DNA of 42,698 bases from a virus, in the IMG/VR virus record IMGVR_UViG_3300025732_000084, positions 1 through 42,698 of that record; one strand, 5' to 3'. The notes beneath the pieces are model-generated. The model was not told where the DNA came from. It saw only the letters and a program-made list of their open reading frames with translations, and did no database searches. The position numbers and the translations under genes are program-made. Each line of letters opens with the position of its first letter. Positions within the stretch are counted from its first letter, which is position 1. Positions 3,470 to 37,841 of this stretch are shown here, piece by piece.

Positions 3470-3475
3470 GACCTT

Positions 3476-3613
3476 ACGTTCATCCTCATTTTAGAGGACG
3501 CAAGTAGGACGACGCGGAACGCATTATCGTTCATTCGCTATTCGGAAATAGTGAACGGAAACGCCGCCCAAAGGAACGGGAATTAAAACTCTCATTTCTT
3601 TAGGAGAAATTCA
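3476..3613 (+). promoter_or_regulatory. Long structured 5' leader
   Basis: The region between the promoter and the first ATG has no ORF but contains clear stems. TCCTC/GAGGA (3483-3487 / 3494-3498) has a 6-nt loop. A longer hairpin at 3528-3557 pairs CGTTCA with TGAACG and CTATT with AATAG around a CGGA loop, with a TTCG bulge. GCGG (3514-3517) can pair with CCGC (3564-3567) to enclose it. The region is GC-richer than its surroundings and ends in a strong ribosome site (TAGGAGAAA). It may be a translational control element; it matches no riboswitch class I know. Confidence 0.5.
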
Positions 3614-5379: not shown

Positions 5380-6141
5380 ATGGCAAGAAGAAAAAGAGTA
5401 GACGATCAACCGATTGGTGTTGGAATGACTGCTAAACAAATGAAACGCAAGAAACCAATCGGTTTGGATTTAATGAGAGATATTGAACCTCTTACTGATA
5501 ATCAAAAACTGTTATATCAAGCATACGAAAAAAATCAAAACATCGTTGCTTATGGTTGTGCCGGAACAGGTAAAACTTTTATTACTCTTTATAATGCTCT
5601 TCAAGATGTTTTAGATGAAAGAAGTCCTTACGAAAAGATTTACATCGTAAGATCTCTTGTTGCGACTCGTGAAATTGGTTTTCTTCCTGGAGATCACGAA
5701 GATAAATCCTCACTTTACCAAATCCCATATAAAAATATGGTAAAGTATATGTTCCAAATGCCATCTGATGCAGACTTTGAGATGCTCTATGGAAACCTCA
5801 AAACTCAAGGAACGATTAGTTTTTGGAGTACTTCTTTTATTCGCGGAACTACTCTGGACAATTCTATCATTATCGTAGATGAGTTTGCTAACTTAAATGG
5901 TCACGAGCTGGATTCAATTATTACTCGTGTAGGCGAGAACAGTAAAATTATGTTCTGTGGTGATGCTACCCAAAGTGATTTAATCAAAACAAGCGAAAGA
6001 AATGGTATTATTGATTTTATGAAAATTTTAAGAGTAATGCCCTCTTTTGATATTATTGAATTTGGAATCGAAGATGTGGTCCGTTCCGGAATAGTTAAAG
6101 AGTACCTAACAGCAAAATATGAGTTGGGAGTTACTCTTTAA
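5380..6141 (+). CDS. phoH: PhoH-like P-loop ATPase
   Basis: This 253-residue protein has a Walker A motif (GCAGTGKT, residues 59-66), a Walker B motif (IIIVDEFAN) and the later sensor-like block GDATQSDL typical of PhoH. The N-terminal ~35 residues are basic. PhoH proteins are cytoplasmic ATPases related to the RecD-type helicase core. phoH is one of the commonest cyanophage host-like genes, but its role in infection is unsettled despite the original phosphate-starvation link in E. coli. A possible extended -10 promoter lies upstream, and a homing-endonuclease gene with its own hairpin leader lies downstream. Confidence 0.93.
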   Translation: MARRKRVDDQPIGVGMTAKQMKRKKPIGLDLMRDIEPLTDNQKLLYQAYEKNQNIVAYGCAGTGKTFITLYNALQDVLDERSPYEKIYIVRSLVATREIGFLPGDHEDKSSLYQIPYKNMVKYMFQMPSDADFEMLYGNLKTQGTISFWSTSFIRGTTLDNSIIIVDEFANLNGHELDSIITRVGENSKIMFCGDATQSDLIKTSERNGIIDFMKILRVMPSFDIIEFGIEDVVRSGIVKEYLTAKYELGVTL

Positions 6142-6147
6142 TATGTT

Positions 6148-6196
6148 AGTTCATAAAAGTTCCAGTTTATATAAATAATTGTAACTTTTATGAACT
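6148..6196 (+). promoter_or_regulatory. Hairpin with T4-type late promoter in its loop
   Basis: A perfect 14-bp inverted repeat (AGTTCATAAAAGTT at 6148-6161, AACTTTTATGAACT at 6183-6196) encloses a 21-nt loop. That loop holds an exact T4-type late promoter, TATAAATA (6170-6177). The 3' arm ends 4 nt before the GIY-YIG start at 6201. Read-through mRNA from phoH would fold and bury the initiation region. A late transcript would start near 6183 and lack the 5' arm. This mirrors the control of T4 I-TevI. Confidence 0.8.
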
Positions 6197-6200
6197 GTTA

Positions 6201-6833
6201 ATGTATAAAATTTATTTAATTACCAATCTTTTAAATTATAAAAAGTACGTTGGAATAACAAAATTTTCTCTTGAAGAGAGGTTCTTACAGCACACTAAAA
6301 AAGGTTTTCTTTTAACAGAAGCAATTCAAAAATATGGAAAACAAAAGTTCTCAATAGAACTAATTGAAGAAGTTGAAAGCGCAGAAAGAGCGTATGAACT
6401 TGAAATGTTTTATATTCAAGAGTATAATACAAAGGCACCTAATGGATATAATTTGACTGATGGTGGTGATGGAATTTTTGGTTGGCAACCAACAGATGAA
6501 TATAGACAAGAGTGTTCTGAAAGAGTAAAACAACTTCATAAAAATCAAAAAATTGGAATGTATGGAAAAAAACATACAAAAGAGACAAGACAAAAAATGA
6601 GTGAATCTTTAAAAGGAAACCAAAATTGTTTAGGAAGAGTATTATCTGAAGAAACAAAATCTAAAATTTCATCATCACATAAAGGAAAAACTTTAAGTAA
6701 TGAAACTAAAAAGAAAATAAGTGAAAACCATCATAATGTATTCGGAGAAAATAATCCTATGTATGGGAGAAAACATTCTCCGGAAACAATTGAAAAAATT
6801 CGTCAAAAAGCATTAGAAAGAAAAAAGAAATGA
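6201..6833 (+). CDS. GIY-YIG homing endonuclease with NUMOD3 repeats
   Basis: Residues ~1-95 form a GIY-YIG nuclease: KIYLITN and KKYVGIT supply the two strand motifs, LEERFLQH the catalytic-Arg helix, and ELEMFYIQEYN the metal-binding Glu helix. Residues ~110-210 hold repeated NUMOD3-like DNA-binding segments (MYGKKHTKET, GRVLSEET, GKTLSNET, MYGRKHSPET). It resembles the free-standing T4 Seg enzymes. It is inserted between phoH and the exonuclease gene, and its stop overlaps the exonuclease start (ATGA). It is more AT-rich and Lys-rich than its neighbours, as expected of a mobile gene. The ATG at 6201 overlaps the stop of a tiny ATG-AAC-TGT-TAA reading frame inside the hairpin arm. Confidence 0.9.
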   Translation: MYKIYLITNLLNYKKYVGITKFSLEERFLQHTKKGFLLTEAIQKYGKQKFSIELIEEVESAERAYELEMFYIQEYNTKAPNGYNLTDGGDGIFGWQPTDEYRQECSERVKQLHKNQKIGMYGKKHTKETRQKMSESLKGNQNCLGRVLSEETKSKISSSHKGKTLSNETKKKISENHHNVFGENNPMYGRKHSPETIEKIRQKALERKKK

Positions 6834-7510
6834 CCTTTACTCATCATAATTTTTTAGGTGAACTTGAACTAGAAAAGAAAGAAACAAACGGCATCCGCCT
6901 GTACCATCTTCCTGATGGTCAGTGGGTGCCTTCAATCACTTCAGTCACCTCTTTCTACAATCGTCAGATCTTTATTGATTGGAGAAAGCGTGTAGGACTT
7001 GAAGAGGCAAATCGGATTACAAAAAGAGCAACAGCAAGAGGAACTGACTTTCACCAAGTCTGTCAGGACTATCTTGAAAATAAAGAACTTGTCTGGAATG
7101 ATTATCAACTCCTGACAAAGCATATGTTTCATCACGCGAAACCTTATCTGGATAAGATAAATAATATTCATGCAATTGAAAGAACTCTCTACTCTCAATA
7201 CCTTGGACTTGCTGGACGAGTTGATTGTATTGCTGAATATGAAGGAGAATTAGCAGTCATTGACTTCAAGACATCAGAAAAAATCAAACCAGAGCAGTGG
7301 ATTGAAAACTATTTTGTTCAAGAAACTTTCTATGCTGCTGCTTACTACGAACTCACAGGACAAGTTGTTAAAAAACTCATTACACTTATGGTGACTCCTG
7401 GCGGGGAAGTCAAGGTGTTTGACAAAAGAAACAAAGGGGATTATATTAAACTATTAGTTCGTTATATTAAAGAATTTGTACATCACAATACTGGGTCAGA
7501 TGGAGAATGA
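6830..7510 (+). CDS. PD-(D/E)XK exonuclease (RecB/MGME1-like)
   Basis: This 226-residue protein has the RecB-family nuclease core: GRVDCIAEY (Asp132) and AVIDFKTS (Asp145, Lys147), followed by a QETFYAAAYYE helix corresponding to the Q-x-x-x-Y motif. An upstream RGTDFHQVCQDYL segment supplies the usual conserved His. Such proteins occur throughout T4-like cyanophages, often annotated as MGME1-like exonucleases, and probably act in DNA recombination, repair or host DNA breakdown. The start overlaps the stop of the GIY-YIG gene (ATGA), and its own 3' end overlaps gene 33 by 11 nt. Confidence 0.85.
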   Translation: MTFTHHNFLGELELEKKETNGIRLYHLPDGQWVPSITSVTSFYNRQIFIDWRKRVGLEEANRITKRATARGTDFHQVCQDYLENKELVWNDYQLLTKHMFHHAKPYLDKINNIHAIERTLYSQYLGLAGRVDCIAEYEGELAVIDFKTSEKIKPEQWIENYFVQETFYAAAYYELTGQVVKKLITLMVTPGGEVKVFDKRNKGDYIKLLVRYIKEFVHHNTGSDGE

Positions 7511-7758: not shown

Positions 7759-8328
7759 ATGTGGTATGTTTATGCCTATTTGAGAGAAGACAAAACTCCT
7801 TATTATATCGGAAAGGGAAGTGGTAAAAGATGTTATGTAAAACATCGTAGAAGTAATGGTGGATTTTCTCCTCCTGAAAAAGAAAAAGTACTTATTTTAA
7901 AAAAATTTAATAATGAAGAAGAAAGTTTTCAGTTTGAAAAATATATGATTTTTCTTTATGGAAGAAAAATTGATGGCGGAATTCTTATTAATGAATCTCT
8001 TGGTGGGTTAGGCAATAAAACTTTTCTTACGGAAGAGGAGAGGAATAAAAAAAGAAAAGAGTCGAGAGAAAAGTGGTTGGAAAAAAATCAAGACTACCAC
8101 AAAAATTATTGGCAATTCAATAAAGAAAAATTAAATAATGAACAGAAAGAAAGATATTATAAAAATATAGAAAGTAGAAAAAAATATTGGCAGGAAAATA
8201 AAGAAGAATTTAATAAAAAACAAAGAGAAAAATATCATAGTGGAGAAAGTGAAAGTAGAAAAGAATACAAAAAGAAATATGGAGAAGAATATAGAAAAAG
8301 AATAGTGAAAACCACAAAGAATATATGA
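7759..8328 (+). CDS. GIY-YIG endonuclease with charged repeat tail
   Basis: Residues ~1-90 are a GIY-YIG domain (WYVYAYLR and YYIGKGSGKR motifs; the FQFEKYMIFLYG helix carries the likely catalytic Glu). The remaining ~100 residues are almost entirely Lys, Glu, Asn, Arg and Tyr, with repeating YYKNIESRKKYWQENKEEF-like units, as in many phage GIY-YIG proteins with DNA-contacting coiled tails. It starts one base after gene 33 and precedes gene 59, so it occupies an otherwise compact core operon. Unlike the other two GIY-YIG genes here, it has no hairpin or late promoter in front and probably relies on read-through. Confidence 0.85.
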   Translation: MWYVYAYLREDKTPYYIGKGSGKRCYVKHRRSNGGFSPPEKEKVLILKKFNNEEESFQFEKYMIFLYGRKIDGGILINESLGGLGNKTFLTEEERNKKRKESREKWLEKNQDYHKNYWQFNKEKLNNEQKERYYKNIESRKKYWQENKEEFNKKQREKYHSGESESRKEYKKKYGEEYRKRIVKTTKNI

Positions 8329-9366: not shown

Positions 9367-10314
9367 ATGTCTTTTGAAAATCTTAAAAAGCAATCCAAAC
9401 TGGGTTCTCTGACTTCTAAACTGGTAAAAGAAGTTGAGAAGATGAGCACCGCAAGCAGTGGAGAAGATGATCGTCTCTGGAAACCTGAGATGGACAAAAC
9501 TGGAAACGGTTTTGCTGTGATTCGTTTCCTTCCTGCTCCTGAAGGTGAAGAACTTCCTTGGGCAAAGATGTATTCTCACGCTTTCCAAGGTCCTGGTGGT
9601 TGGTATATTGAAAACTCTCTGACTACTATTGGTCAGAAAGATCCTCTTGGTGAACATAACCGCGAACTGTGGAATACTGGTTCCGAAACTAACAAAGAAA
9701 TCGTTCGTAAGCAAAAGCGTAAACTTTCTTATTACAGCAATATCTACGTTGTAAAAGATCCTGCAAATCCTCAAAACGAAGGTAAAGTTTTTCTTTACAA
9801 GTATGGTAAGAAAATCTTTGATAAGATCATGGAAGCGATGCAACCTGAGTTTGAGGATGAAACTCCTATCAATCCTTTTGACTTCTGGCAGGGTGCTAAT
9901 TTCAAACTCAAGATCGTAAAGAAAGATGGGTATTGGAATTACGACAAGTCAGAATTTGGTTCTGTTGAACCACTACTGGATGATGACGATGCTCTGGAAA
10001 CCCTCTGGAAGAAAGAGTATTCCCTGACTGCTATCACTGCTCCTGATCAGTTCAAGTCCTATGAAGAACTTGAGCGTCGTATGAATTCTGTTCTTGGTCT
10101 GAAGACTGCTTCTCCAACTCGCTCTCGCGCTGTTGTTGAGCAAGAAGATGAACTTGAAGAGTATTCTTCTACTCCTTCCACACAAGATCGTGTTGTAGAA
10201 GAACTGGAACAGTCTTATGCTCGTTCTAAGTCTCCTTCACTTCCCAAGATTACGCAGGATGATGAAGACGAAGATGATGCGATGGCATATTTTTCTCGCC
10301 TAGCTAATGACTAA
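9367..10314 (+). CDS. 32: gp32-like single-stranded DNA-binding protein
   Basis: A 315-residue protein with the gp32 plan: a basic N-terminal B region (KKQSKLGSLTSKL), an OB-fold core starting GNGFAVIRFLPAPEGEELPWAK, and a long acidic C-terminal tail (DDEDEDDAM) that would recruit partners such as gp59. It coats single-stranded DNA during replication and recombination. The whole protein has no cysteine, so the zinc ligands of T4 gp32 (His64, Cys77, Cys87, Cys90) are absent and the region is replaced by TIGQKDPLGEHNRELWN. The gene uses more C-ending codons than its neighbours, consistent with high expression. A UUCG-loop terminator follows. Confidence 0.93.
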   Translation: MSFENLKKQSKLGSLTSKLVKEVEKMSTASSGEDDRLWKPEMDKTGNGFAVIRFLPAPEGEELPWAKMYSHAFQGPGGWYIENSLTTIGQKDPLGEHNRELWNTGSETNKEIVRKQKRKLSYYSNIYVVKDPANPQNEGKVFLYKYGKKIFDKIMEAMQPEFEDETPINPFDFWQGANFKLKIVKKDGYWNYDKSEFGSVEPLLDDDDALETLWKKEYSLTAITAPDQFKSYEELERRMNSVLGLKTASPTRSRAVVEQEDELEEYSSTPSTQDRVVEELEQSYARSKSPSLPKITQDDEDEDDAMAYFSRLAND

Positions 10315-10324
10315 ATAGCAATAC

Positions 10325-10396
10325 CTGTAAGTCGCATTATAGGTGGAAAGGGTGCTTCGGCACCTTTTCTTGTATAAATAGTATTGCGACTTACAG
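10325..10396 (+). promoter_or_regulatory. Second hairpin with late promoter before a GIY-YIG gene
   Basis: A perfect 12-bp inverted repeat (CTGTAAGTCGCA at 10325-10336, TGCGACTTACAG at 10385-10396) encloses the gene 32 terminator and an exact late promoter TATAAATA (10373-10380). Late transcription would start near 10386, at the beginning of the 3' arm. Read-through transcripts could fold the full structure close to the start codon at 10406. A second 7-bp match (GCAATAC 10318-10324 with GTATTGC 10381-10387) overlaps the 3' arm and would be mutually exclusive with it. Confidence 0.75.
10347..10371 (+). terminator. gene 32 terminator with TTCG tetraloop
   Basis: A 9-bp stem (AAAGGGTGC / GCACCTTTT, one G.T wobble) is closed by an extra-stable TTCG loop and runs into TTTTCTT. 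It lies 33 nt after the gene 32 stop and is nested inside a larger inverted repeat. Confidence 0.9.
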
Positions 10397-10405
10397 AGTA
10401 GAACT

Positions 10406-11029
10406 ATGGAAACTCCAAAAGAGTATCATTATGTCTATTATTCCTATGAGGAATATGGTAGAGGATATTTAGGATCAAGAACTTGTAATTGTTTACCTGA
10501 AAAAGACACAAGTTATTTTGGTTCTTTCAAAGATAAATCATTTAAACCAACATATAAAATAATTTTAAAAAGTGATTATTCTACAAGAGAAGAAGCATAC
10601 GCTGATGAGATTATTTTACAAGAACACTATAAAGTAATAGAAAATCCACATTTTGCAAATAGAGCATATCAAACTTCCACTGGATTTAGTAGAAAAGGTA
10701 TGACTCCACATAATAAAGGAAAGAAAATGTGTGAGAATCAAAGAAAAAAACTAAGTAATTCTTGTAAAGGAAAAAAAGTCACAGAAGAAACTAAAAAGAA
10801 AATAAGTAGAGCATCTAAAGGGAAAACTTTATCTGAAGAGCATAAAAGAAAAATAGGAGAATCAAATAAAGGAAAACCTAGACAGACACCAGAAGGTATG
10901 GAAAGACTTAAAAGAATGCAACAAGAAAGAAAAGGAAAACCTAGTAAAAAACATTCAGAAGAAACAAAAAGAAAGATCAGTGAGGCAACAAAAGGTAGAG
11001 TTCCTTGGAATAAAAAGAATTATTCATAG
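10406..11029 (+). CDS. GIY-YIG homing endonuclease with NUMOD3 repeats
   Basis: A 207-residue protein. The N-terminal domain carries divergent GIY-YIG strands (YHYVYYSYEEYGRGYLGSR) and an EEAYADEIILQEHY helix with the likely catalytic Glu. From residue ~95, NUMOD3-like units repeat (GMTPHNKGKK, GKKVTEETKKKIS, GKTLSEEHKRKIG, GKPSKKHSEETKRKIS). It lies directly after gene 32 and converges on gene 53, overlapping its end by 10 bp. The body is AT-rich and Lys-rich, in sharp contrast to gene 32, which indicates acquisition as a mobile gene. Expression is probably late because of the upstream element. Confidence 0.87.
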   Translation: METPKEYHYVYYSYEEYGRGYLGSRTCNCLPEKDTSYFGSFKDKSFKPTYKIILKSDYSTREEAYADEIILQEHYKVIENPHFANRAYQTSTGFSRKGMTPHNKGKKMCENQRKKLSNSCKGKKVTEETKKKISRASKGKTLSEEHKRKIGESNKGKPRQTPEGMERLKRMQQERKGKPSKKHSEETKRKISEATKGRVPWNKKNYS

Positions 11030-37829: not shown

Positions 37830-37841
37830 TATTTATAAATA
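37830..37841. promoter_or_regulatory. Overlapping divergent late promoters
   Basis: The 12-bp palindrome TATTTATAAATA contains an exact TATAAATA on each strand (plus 37834-37841, minus 37830-37837). The minus copy serves the gene ending at 37434 and the plus copy serves 37868 onward, each with a short leader. Confidence 0.85.

Follow-up and report, generated by a model that had tools for sequence, protein, structure and literature searches.

The inverted repeat at 6148–6203 of the window, i.e. of the whole 42,698-nucleotide stretch of IMG/VR virus record IMGVR_UViG_3300025732_000084 analysed here, is likely to act in cis as a late-expression switch for a free-standing homing endonuclease, with promoter activity, early read-through and the translational block being inferred. 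It represents the simple form (class I) of a device widespread among the homing endonuclease genes (HEGs) of T4-like cyanophages, and a second, more elaborate element (class II), which was overlooked in the first-pass annotation of the window, is located at 10310–10408. The anatomy of the elements, the covariation of their arms, their association with HEGs and the insertion of the latter at sites empty in relatives are demonstrated. The class I element and its gene include the following features:

6148–6161, plus strand: 5′ arm of the class I hairpin (AGTTCATAAAAGTT), perfect 14-bp pairing
6170–6177, plus strand: late-promoter box TATAAATA inside the hairpin loop, exact motif, predicted +1 at 6183
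6183–6196, plus strand: 3′ arm of the class I hairpin (AACTTTTATGAACT), with which the predicted late transcript begins (14 nt)
6201–6833, plus strand: HEG A, GIY-YIG and NUMOD3 homing endonuclease of 210 aa (Pfam, PHROG)

The loop between 6161 and 6183 is 21 nt long, and the 3′ arm is separated from the ATG of HEG A at 6201 by 4 nt. The cyanophage late box has been published as NATAAATA (PMC2984593), and the predicted late +1 (box +13), which rests on the motif only, is the first base of the 3′ arm. The first-pass annotation had described a perfect 14-bp repeat around an exact box ending 4 nt before the start codon, which held at all coordinates, as did, by motif, the coincidence of the predicted late start with the 3′ arm. 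It had also claimed that only read-through RNA can form the hairpin, and this is supported by the predicted folds: in read-through RNA the fold extends the stem and reaches −19.4 kcal/mol (z −4.8, 0/200 shuffles), whereas late RNA from 6183 is predicted to have almost no structure (−0.1 kcal/mol over 48 nt). The predicted mean unpaired probability from −15 to +3 around the HEG A ATG is 0.17 for read-through versus 0.65 for late RNA. A switch of this kind calls for a stable hairpin over the gene start in RNA from an upstream promoter and for a late promoter positioned so that late RNA is devoid of the 5′ arm; the former is met as predicted by the folding model, and the latter as inferred from sequence alone, by the motif. 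No AGGAGG-like site is present at 6183–6201, and the AUG region itself adjoins the stem. As the class I leader has no consensus Shine-Dalgarno sequence, it is the start region that would be occluded, and a block there is only inferred.

In the proposed mechanism, read-through transcripts from phoH would carry both arms and form the hairpin, the base of which, lying 4 nt from the AUG, would block the ribosome, while late transcripts, initiated at the first 3′-arm base, would contain no 5′ arm and be translatable. The I-TevI-like reading put forward in the first-pass annotation is supported by same-site relatives that keep the hairpin and by the recurrence of the layout at HEGs with unrelated arms, and the T4 precedent it invoked is confirmed in the literature (PMC2988022, PMC3014915). 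The control of a toxic nuclease, early phoH read-through and a 5′ end at 6183, which it had also suggested, remain inferred.

Arm length alone is weak evidence, since first-order Markov simulations of this AT-rich sequence (34% G+C) yield arms of at least 14 bp, with loops of up to 60 nt, at a rate of about 0.15 per window. The window contains only two perfect inverted repeats of at least 12 bp; both precede a HEG, and both enclose one of the four plus-strand TATAAATA boxes of the window. The class I element is considered real on account of its position, the predicted occlusion of the start and the compensatory changes in same-site relatives. An Rfam search gave no match for either window element (6148 or 10310).

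HEG A matches PF01541 (GIY-YIG, E 1.9e-9), PF07460 (NUMOD3, E 4.4e-23) and the homing endonuclease family phrog_314 (E 2e-44), and its tblastn matches include SegD of Vibrio phage KVP40. The phrog_314 and SegD matches tie it to T4-type HEGs, so the earlier description of the gene as an unrelated GIY-YIG gene failed. The gene is flanked by phoH (5380–6141) upstream and an exonuclease gene (6830–7510) downstream, which abut in S-SRM01 without a HEG between them, so HEG A is an insertion. From its domains and the empty site it is inferred to be a free-standing, Seg-like GIY-YIG homing endonuclease, cleavage and homing likewise being inferred. HEG relatives occupy the same phoH/exonuclease site in loci L004, L005 and L006, where the hairpin and the late box are kept; protein identity is 72% for L005 and L006. 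The arms are AGTTCATAAAAG/CTTTTATGAACT in the window, TGTCTAACTCGTAAAG/CTTTATGAGTTAGACA in L005 and TAGTTCGTG.../...CACGAACTA in L006, which also has GATAAATA. Comparison of the window with L005 and L006 reveals paired changes on both sides that maintain the stem, so the test of covariation proposed in the first-pass annotation was passed at this site, although independent class I relatives there are few (three plus the window). In S-SM2 the phoH/exonuclease junction is filled by a different ORF, SSM2_276 (L001:3716–4381), which has no Pfam match, so the junction accepts several insertions. A third HEG-like gene of the window (7759–8328), located between gp33 and gp59, has neither a late box nor a hairpin; it belongs to the phrog_10829/15526 family, members of which have class II cassettes elsewhere, and it may be expressed by read-through or be decayed.

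The second element of the window lies after gp32 and before HEG B, and has the same layout as that at 6148 with additional parts:

10310–10317, plus strand: LP1, ACTAAATA box of the class II cassette, predicted +1 at 10323
10322–10346, plus strand: mini-hairpin P2 (ACCTGTAA...TTATAGGT) in the predicted small RNA, with the core of the 5′ arm displayed in its loop
10325–10336, plus strand: 5′ arm of the class II stem P1 (CTGTAAGTCGCA)
10344–10371, plus strand: intrinsic terminator between the arms (GGAAAGGGTGCTTCGGCACCTTTTCTT), fold −15.4 kcal/mol
10373–10380, plus strand: LP2, TATAAATA late box, predicted +1 at 10386
10385–10396, plus strand: 3′ arm of the class II stem P1 (TGCGACTTACAG), at most 1 nt from the predicted HEG B mRNA start
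10406–11029, plus strand: HEG B, NUMOD3 homing endonuclease of 207 aa, GIY-YIG-like by eye

LP1 overlaps the gp32 stop codon (10312–10314), and position +13 of LP2 falls on the 3′ arm of P1. The outer pairs of P1 are formed by 10322–10324 (TAC) with 10398–10400 (GTA), and P2 and the outer part of P1 are mutually exclusive. P1 is predicted to form in LP1-derived or read-through RNA at −51 kcal/mol, where the predicted exposure of the HEG B start region is 0.40 versus 0.59 without P1. The assignment of HEG B is supported only by NUMOD3 (PF07460, E 1.4e-14) and phrog_314 (E 2.4e-20). The gene is inserted between gp32 and the convergent gp53, which adjoin in S-SM2.

Across the 14 genomes or contigs surveyed, 13% of the 182 TATAAATA boxes were found in strong stems (score at least 14) compared with 0–2% for six control 8-mers, and two positive controls from T4 were recovered, gene e and a gene at 45638 which we take to be I-TevII. 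Over all collected sequence, strong stems accompany 162 of 418 distinct boxes, and in 130 cases the 3′ arm begins 12–13 nt past the box. The 154 distinct ORFs downstream of strong-stem boxes are overwhelmingly nuclease-like according to Pfam and PHROG. Of these, 131 ORFs fall into the four largest clusters, which look GIY-YIG-like by eye and have representatives backed by NUMOD3, GIY-YIG or phrog_314; among the remaining clusters, one is the known case of T4 lysozyme e, most have matches to the HNH, NUMOD4 or endonuclease VII families, and a few are unassigned. Late boxes with low stem scores also precede HEG-like genes in 22 of 140 cases (~16%), so the association of the stem with HEGs is strong but not exclusive, and a HEG need not have the hairpin to be expressed.

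Among those of the 77 scored family B loci that have a gp32 match, most carry the HEG directly after gp32, and others are located elsewhere, e.g. with the HEG between phoH and the exonuclease gene; nearly all have the same layout with arms differing in sequence. The class II cassette was seen at HEG loci from ~150 cyanophage-like genomes or contigs, including the cultured phages S-SRM01, B23, MA01 and S-CREM2, identified by the cassette pattern, and S-B68, identified by eye. As the loci were collected via HEG homology or a start-site motif, these counts describe carriers and not prevalence. The pattern scan found no cassette in syn9, P-SSM2, S-PM2 or P-HM2; its reversed-pattern control was uninformative because the late box is nearly the same when read backwards. 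No late-box hairpin is present upstream of T4 segG, which occupies the corresponding position at gene 32, and the psbA-linked nuclease gene of S-PM2 (annotated g49) has a terminator and TATAAATA but no long inverted repeat.

Outside the two elements, the window contains a glutamine riboswitch aptamer (glnA RNA, RF01739) at 3475–3525, scored at the gathering threshold and located upstream of small ORFs. At 37834–37841, between oppositely oriented genes, there are overlapping divergent late boxes (TATTTATAAATA; plus strand at 37834, minus strand at 37837), and the same overlap is found in T4 at 116454/116457.

Class I comprises 15 elements, including that at 6148, with a short loop and no terminator, and corresponds to the T4-like form. 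Class II comprises 81 distinct arm pairs with a long loop, arranged in the order LP1 late box, arm, mini-hairpin, terminator, LP2 late box, complementary arm and ATG. Of 76 class II cassettes scored, 73 have a terminator-like hairpin, and in the other three it is discernible by eye. The LP1 box (N[AC]TAAATA) accompanies 76 of the 81 distinct arm pairs versus 3 of 225 ordinary late boxes, a quarter of the LP1 boxes being the C variant. At LP1 and LP2 alike, position −1 is T and position +1 a purine in ~90–97% of cases, and P1 begins at, or a few nucleotides from, the predicted +1 on either side. The mini-hairpin P2, exemplified by ACCTGA...TCAGGT, GCTTAA...TTAAGC and GTCTGT...ACAGAC, overlaps the outer arm with its 5′ strand and displays the arm core in its loop; its two strands change together, and its score differs modestly from that of non-cognate controls (10.1 versus 7.7).

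Pair statistics were taken from anchored duplexes because the MAFFT alignment misaligned arms of variable length. Each of the inner 12 stem positions shows all four Watson–Crick pairs among the 81 arm pairs. Non-Watson–Crick pairs, scored symmetrically on the coding strand, include 54 G·U versus 12 A·C, which indicates plus-strand RNA, although no formal probability is given as the sequences are related. The median duplex energy is −23 kcal/mol for cognate arms versus −8 kcal/mol for non-cognate ones (shuffled partners), and when tandem late boxes 58–84 nt apart were collected without requiring a stem, 194 of 196 pairs proved complementary. In a hold-out test, with criteria fixed beforehand and a new scan via a different start-site motif, LP1 and a cognate duplex were found in 41 of 42 previously unseen cassettes, the exception being L307, in which LP1 is decayed; all 41 readable downstream ORFs matched the HEG set. 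Orthogonality of the arms within a genome was not supported, duplexes of −16 or stronger making up 4.6% within and 7.1% between genomes, which is not significant. The Rfam search gave no match for class II or class III elements.

A third form was observed before HEGs in L124 (S-SRM01, ~77.56 kb), L118, L211 and L170, where the 5′ arm is displayed in the loop of a hairpin whose constant frame is GGGCAGCA...TGCGTAAGTCCC; this form has no canonical LP1 and no Rfam match. A distant GIY-YIG gene in L011 (ORF start near 816) has TATAAATACCTCCTAGGAGGTATTTAATATG upstream, where the 5′ arm includes the late box and the Shine-Dalgarno sequence lies in the 3′ arm, much like T4 e.

In class II, as exemplified at 10310–10408, the terminator and the mini-hairpin lie between the arms and LP1 lies upstream, so that both arms would begin at a predicted start, and the terminator and P1 should silence read-through as well. 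The LP1 product is predicted to be a terminated RNA of ~50 nt antisense to the HEG mRNA leader. It has its own promoter, a terminator and complementarity to the target leader, with the promoter recognised by motif only; in the absence of expression data, both the discrete RNA and its action in trans are inferred.

The reading of class II as a tandem sRNA–mRNA module, which seems to us slightly less likely than not, holds that this late RNA, with P2 and the terminator, pairs in trans with the first ~14–17 nt of the LP2-driven mRNA beside the start codon and so keeps late HEG synthesis low. In its favor are the enrichment of LP1, the shared −1/+1 signature of both boxes, the start of P1 near the predicted +1 on both sides with the terminator between the arms, the covarying P2 with the arm core exposed, and the complementarity of tandem boxes found independently of the stem and in the hold-out set; a HEG-linked cyanophage antisense RNA, CfrI, provides a precedent (PMC2984593). 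Against it, LP1 is a promoter by motif only, with the C variant in a quarter of cases and, in the window, an overlap with the gp32 stop codon; cassettes of the same genome are no more orthogonal than those of different genomes, the gain in P2 score is modest, the covariation is equally compatible with pairing in cis, and the model is not applicable to the class I element at 6148. The competing cis-only reading, which we rank below the trans model and regard as more doubtful than not, holds that the terminator and P1 silence upstream and LP1 read-through, with LP2 alone giving translatable mRNA. It shares its logic with T4 I-TevI and mobE and agrees with the predicted P1 fold and reduced exposure of the HEG B start, but it leaves unexplained the retention of LP1, the start of the stem at the predicted +1 of LP1 and the retention of P2. 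Since LP1 is kept, the stem starts at its predicted +1 and P2 competes with P1, a function of the LP1 RNA in its own right is the best explanation. Taken further, the trans reading would make class II a portable two-RNA cassette in which twin same-strand late promoters produce the ~50-nt RNA and the HEG mRNA, their 5′ ends being complementary as each start falls on one arm of the inverted repeat, and the small RNA would restrain the HEG in trans, leaving it silent early and capped late, with possible effects on copy number or superinfection; this extended reading is offered tentatively, as somewhat less likely than not.

It is highly improbable that the inverted repeat is a DNA-level operator, serving for HEG autorepression as in I-TevI, which binds an operator over its own late promoter (PMC2988022), or for another dyad-binding repressor: all four pairs occur at the inner positions, i.e. 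pairing and not sequence is kept, and the G·U excess is that expected for plus-strand RNA. A chance repeat or an ordinary terminator at 6148 is practically ruled out. The frequency of such arms in shuffled windows, given above, speaks for chance, which is nonetheless rejected by the compensatory changes in relatives and the recurrence at HEGs; a terminator is rejected by the lack of a U run and the low G+C content.

Experimental knowledge of late-switch hairpins comes from a handful of HEGs in coliphages and Aeromonas phages; the comparative evidence shows that cyanophage HEGs of the GIY-YIG, HNH and endonuclease VII types use this design repeatedly. As a unit that is small, easy to recognise and open to testing, the class II cassette leads to the prediction of a so far unannotated small RNA in cultured phages, among them S-SRM01 and B23, and offers a handle on how hosts tolerate selfish nucleases. 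In the open-access literature searched, no such hairpins were described for cyanophage HEGs, and no twin-promoter cassette.

The cis design combining a hairpin with a late promoter has been described for I-TevI, I-TevII, I-TevIII, segB, Aeh1 mobE, T4 e and soc (Edgell 2010, PMC2988022; Uzan and Miller 2010, PMC3014915). The element at 6148 fits the design of I-TevI, segB and mobE, the cyanophage example being new: as in these cases, the HEG lies behind early or middle genes, the read-through hairpin covers the start, and the late promoter is placed so that late RNA misses the 5′ arm. Unlike them, the cyanophage element has the box in the loop and a 3′ arm starting at the predicted +1, class I is devoid of a consensus Shine-Dalgarno sequence, and class II is extended by a terminator, a mini-hairpin and a further late box upstream. 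Another parallel to class II is seg43(25) of Aeromonas phage 25 (PMC2988022), which has a stable hairpin just upstream of the HEG start with the RBS partly uncovered; no terminator or twin late promoters are described in the sections of that paper bearing on it. CfrI of cyanophage S-PM2 (Millard 2010, cited in PMC2984593) is, like the class II candidate, an RNA regulator tied to a cyanophage HEG, but it is ~225 nt long and antisense to psbA and the HEG, whereas the candidate is ~50 nt long and lies upstream on the same strand. Antisense RNAs are known to limit mobile elements, as with RNA-OUT of Tn10 and RNAs of the CopA type. The class II candidate shares with these a short hairpin structure, a terminator and complementarity to the 5′ leader of an mRNA for a mobility gene, with the difference that the classical RNAs are encoded on the complementary strand, while the class II RNA would owe its complementarity to a same-strand inverted repeat.
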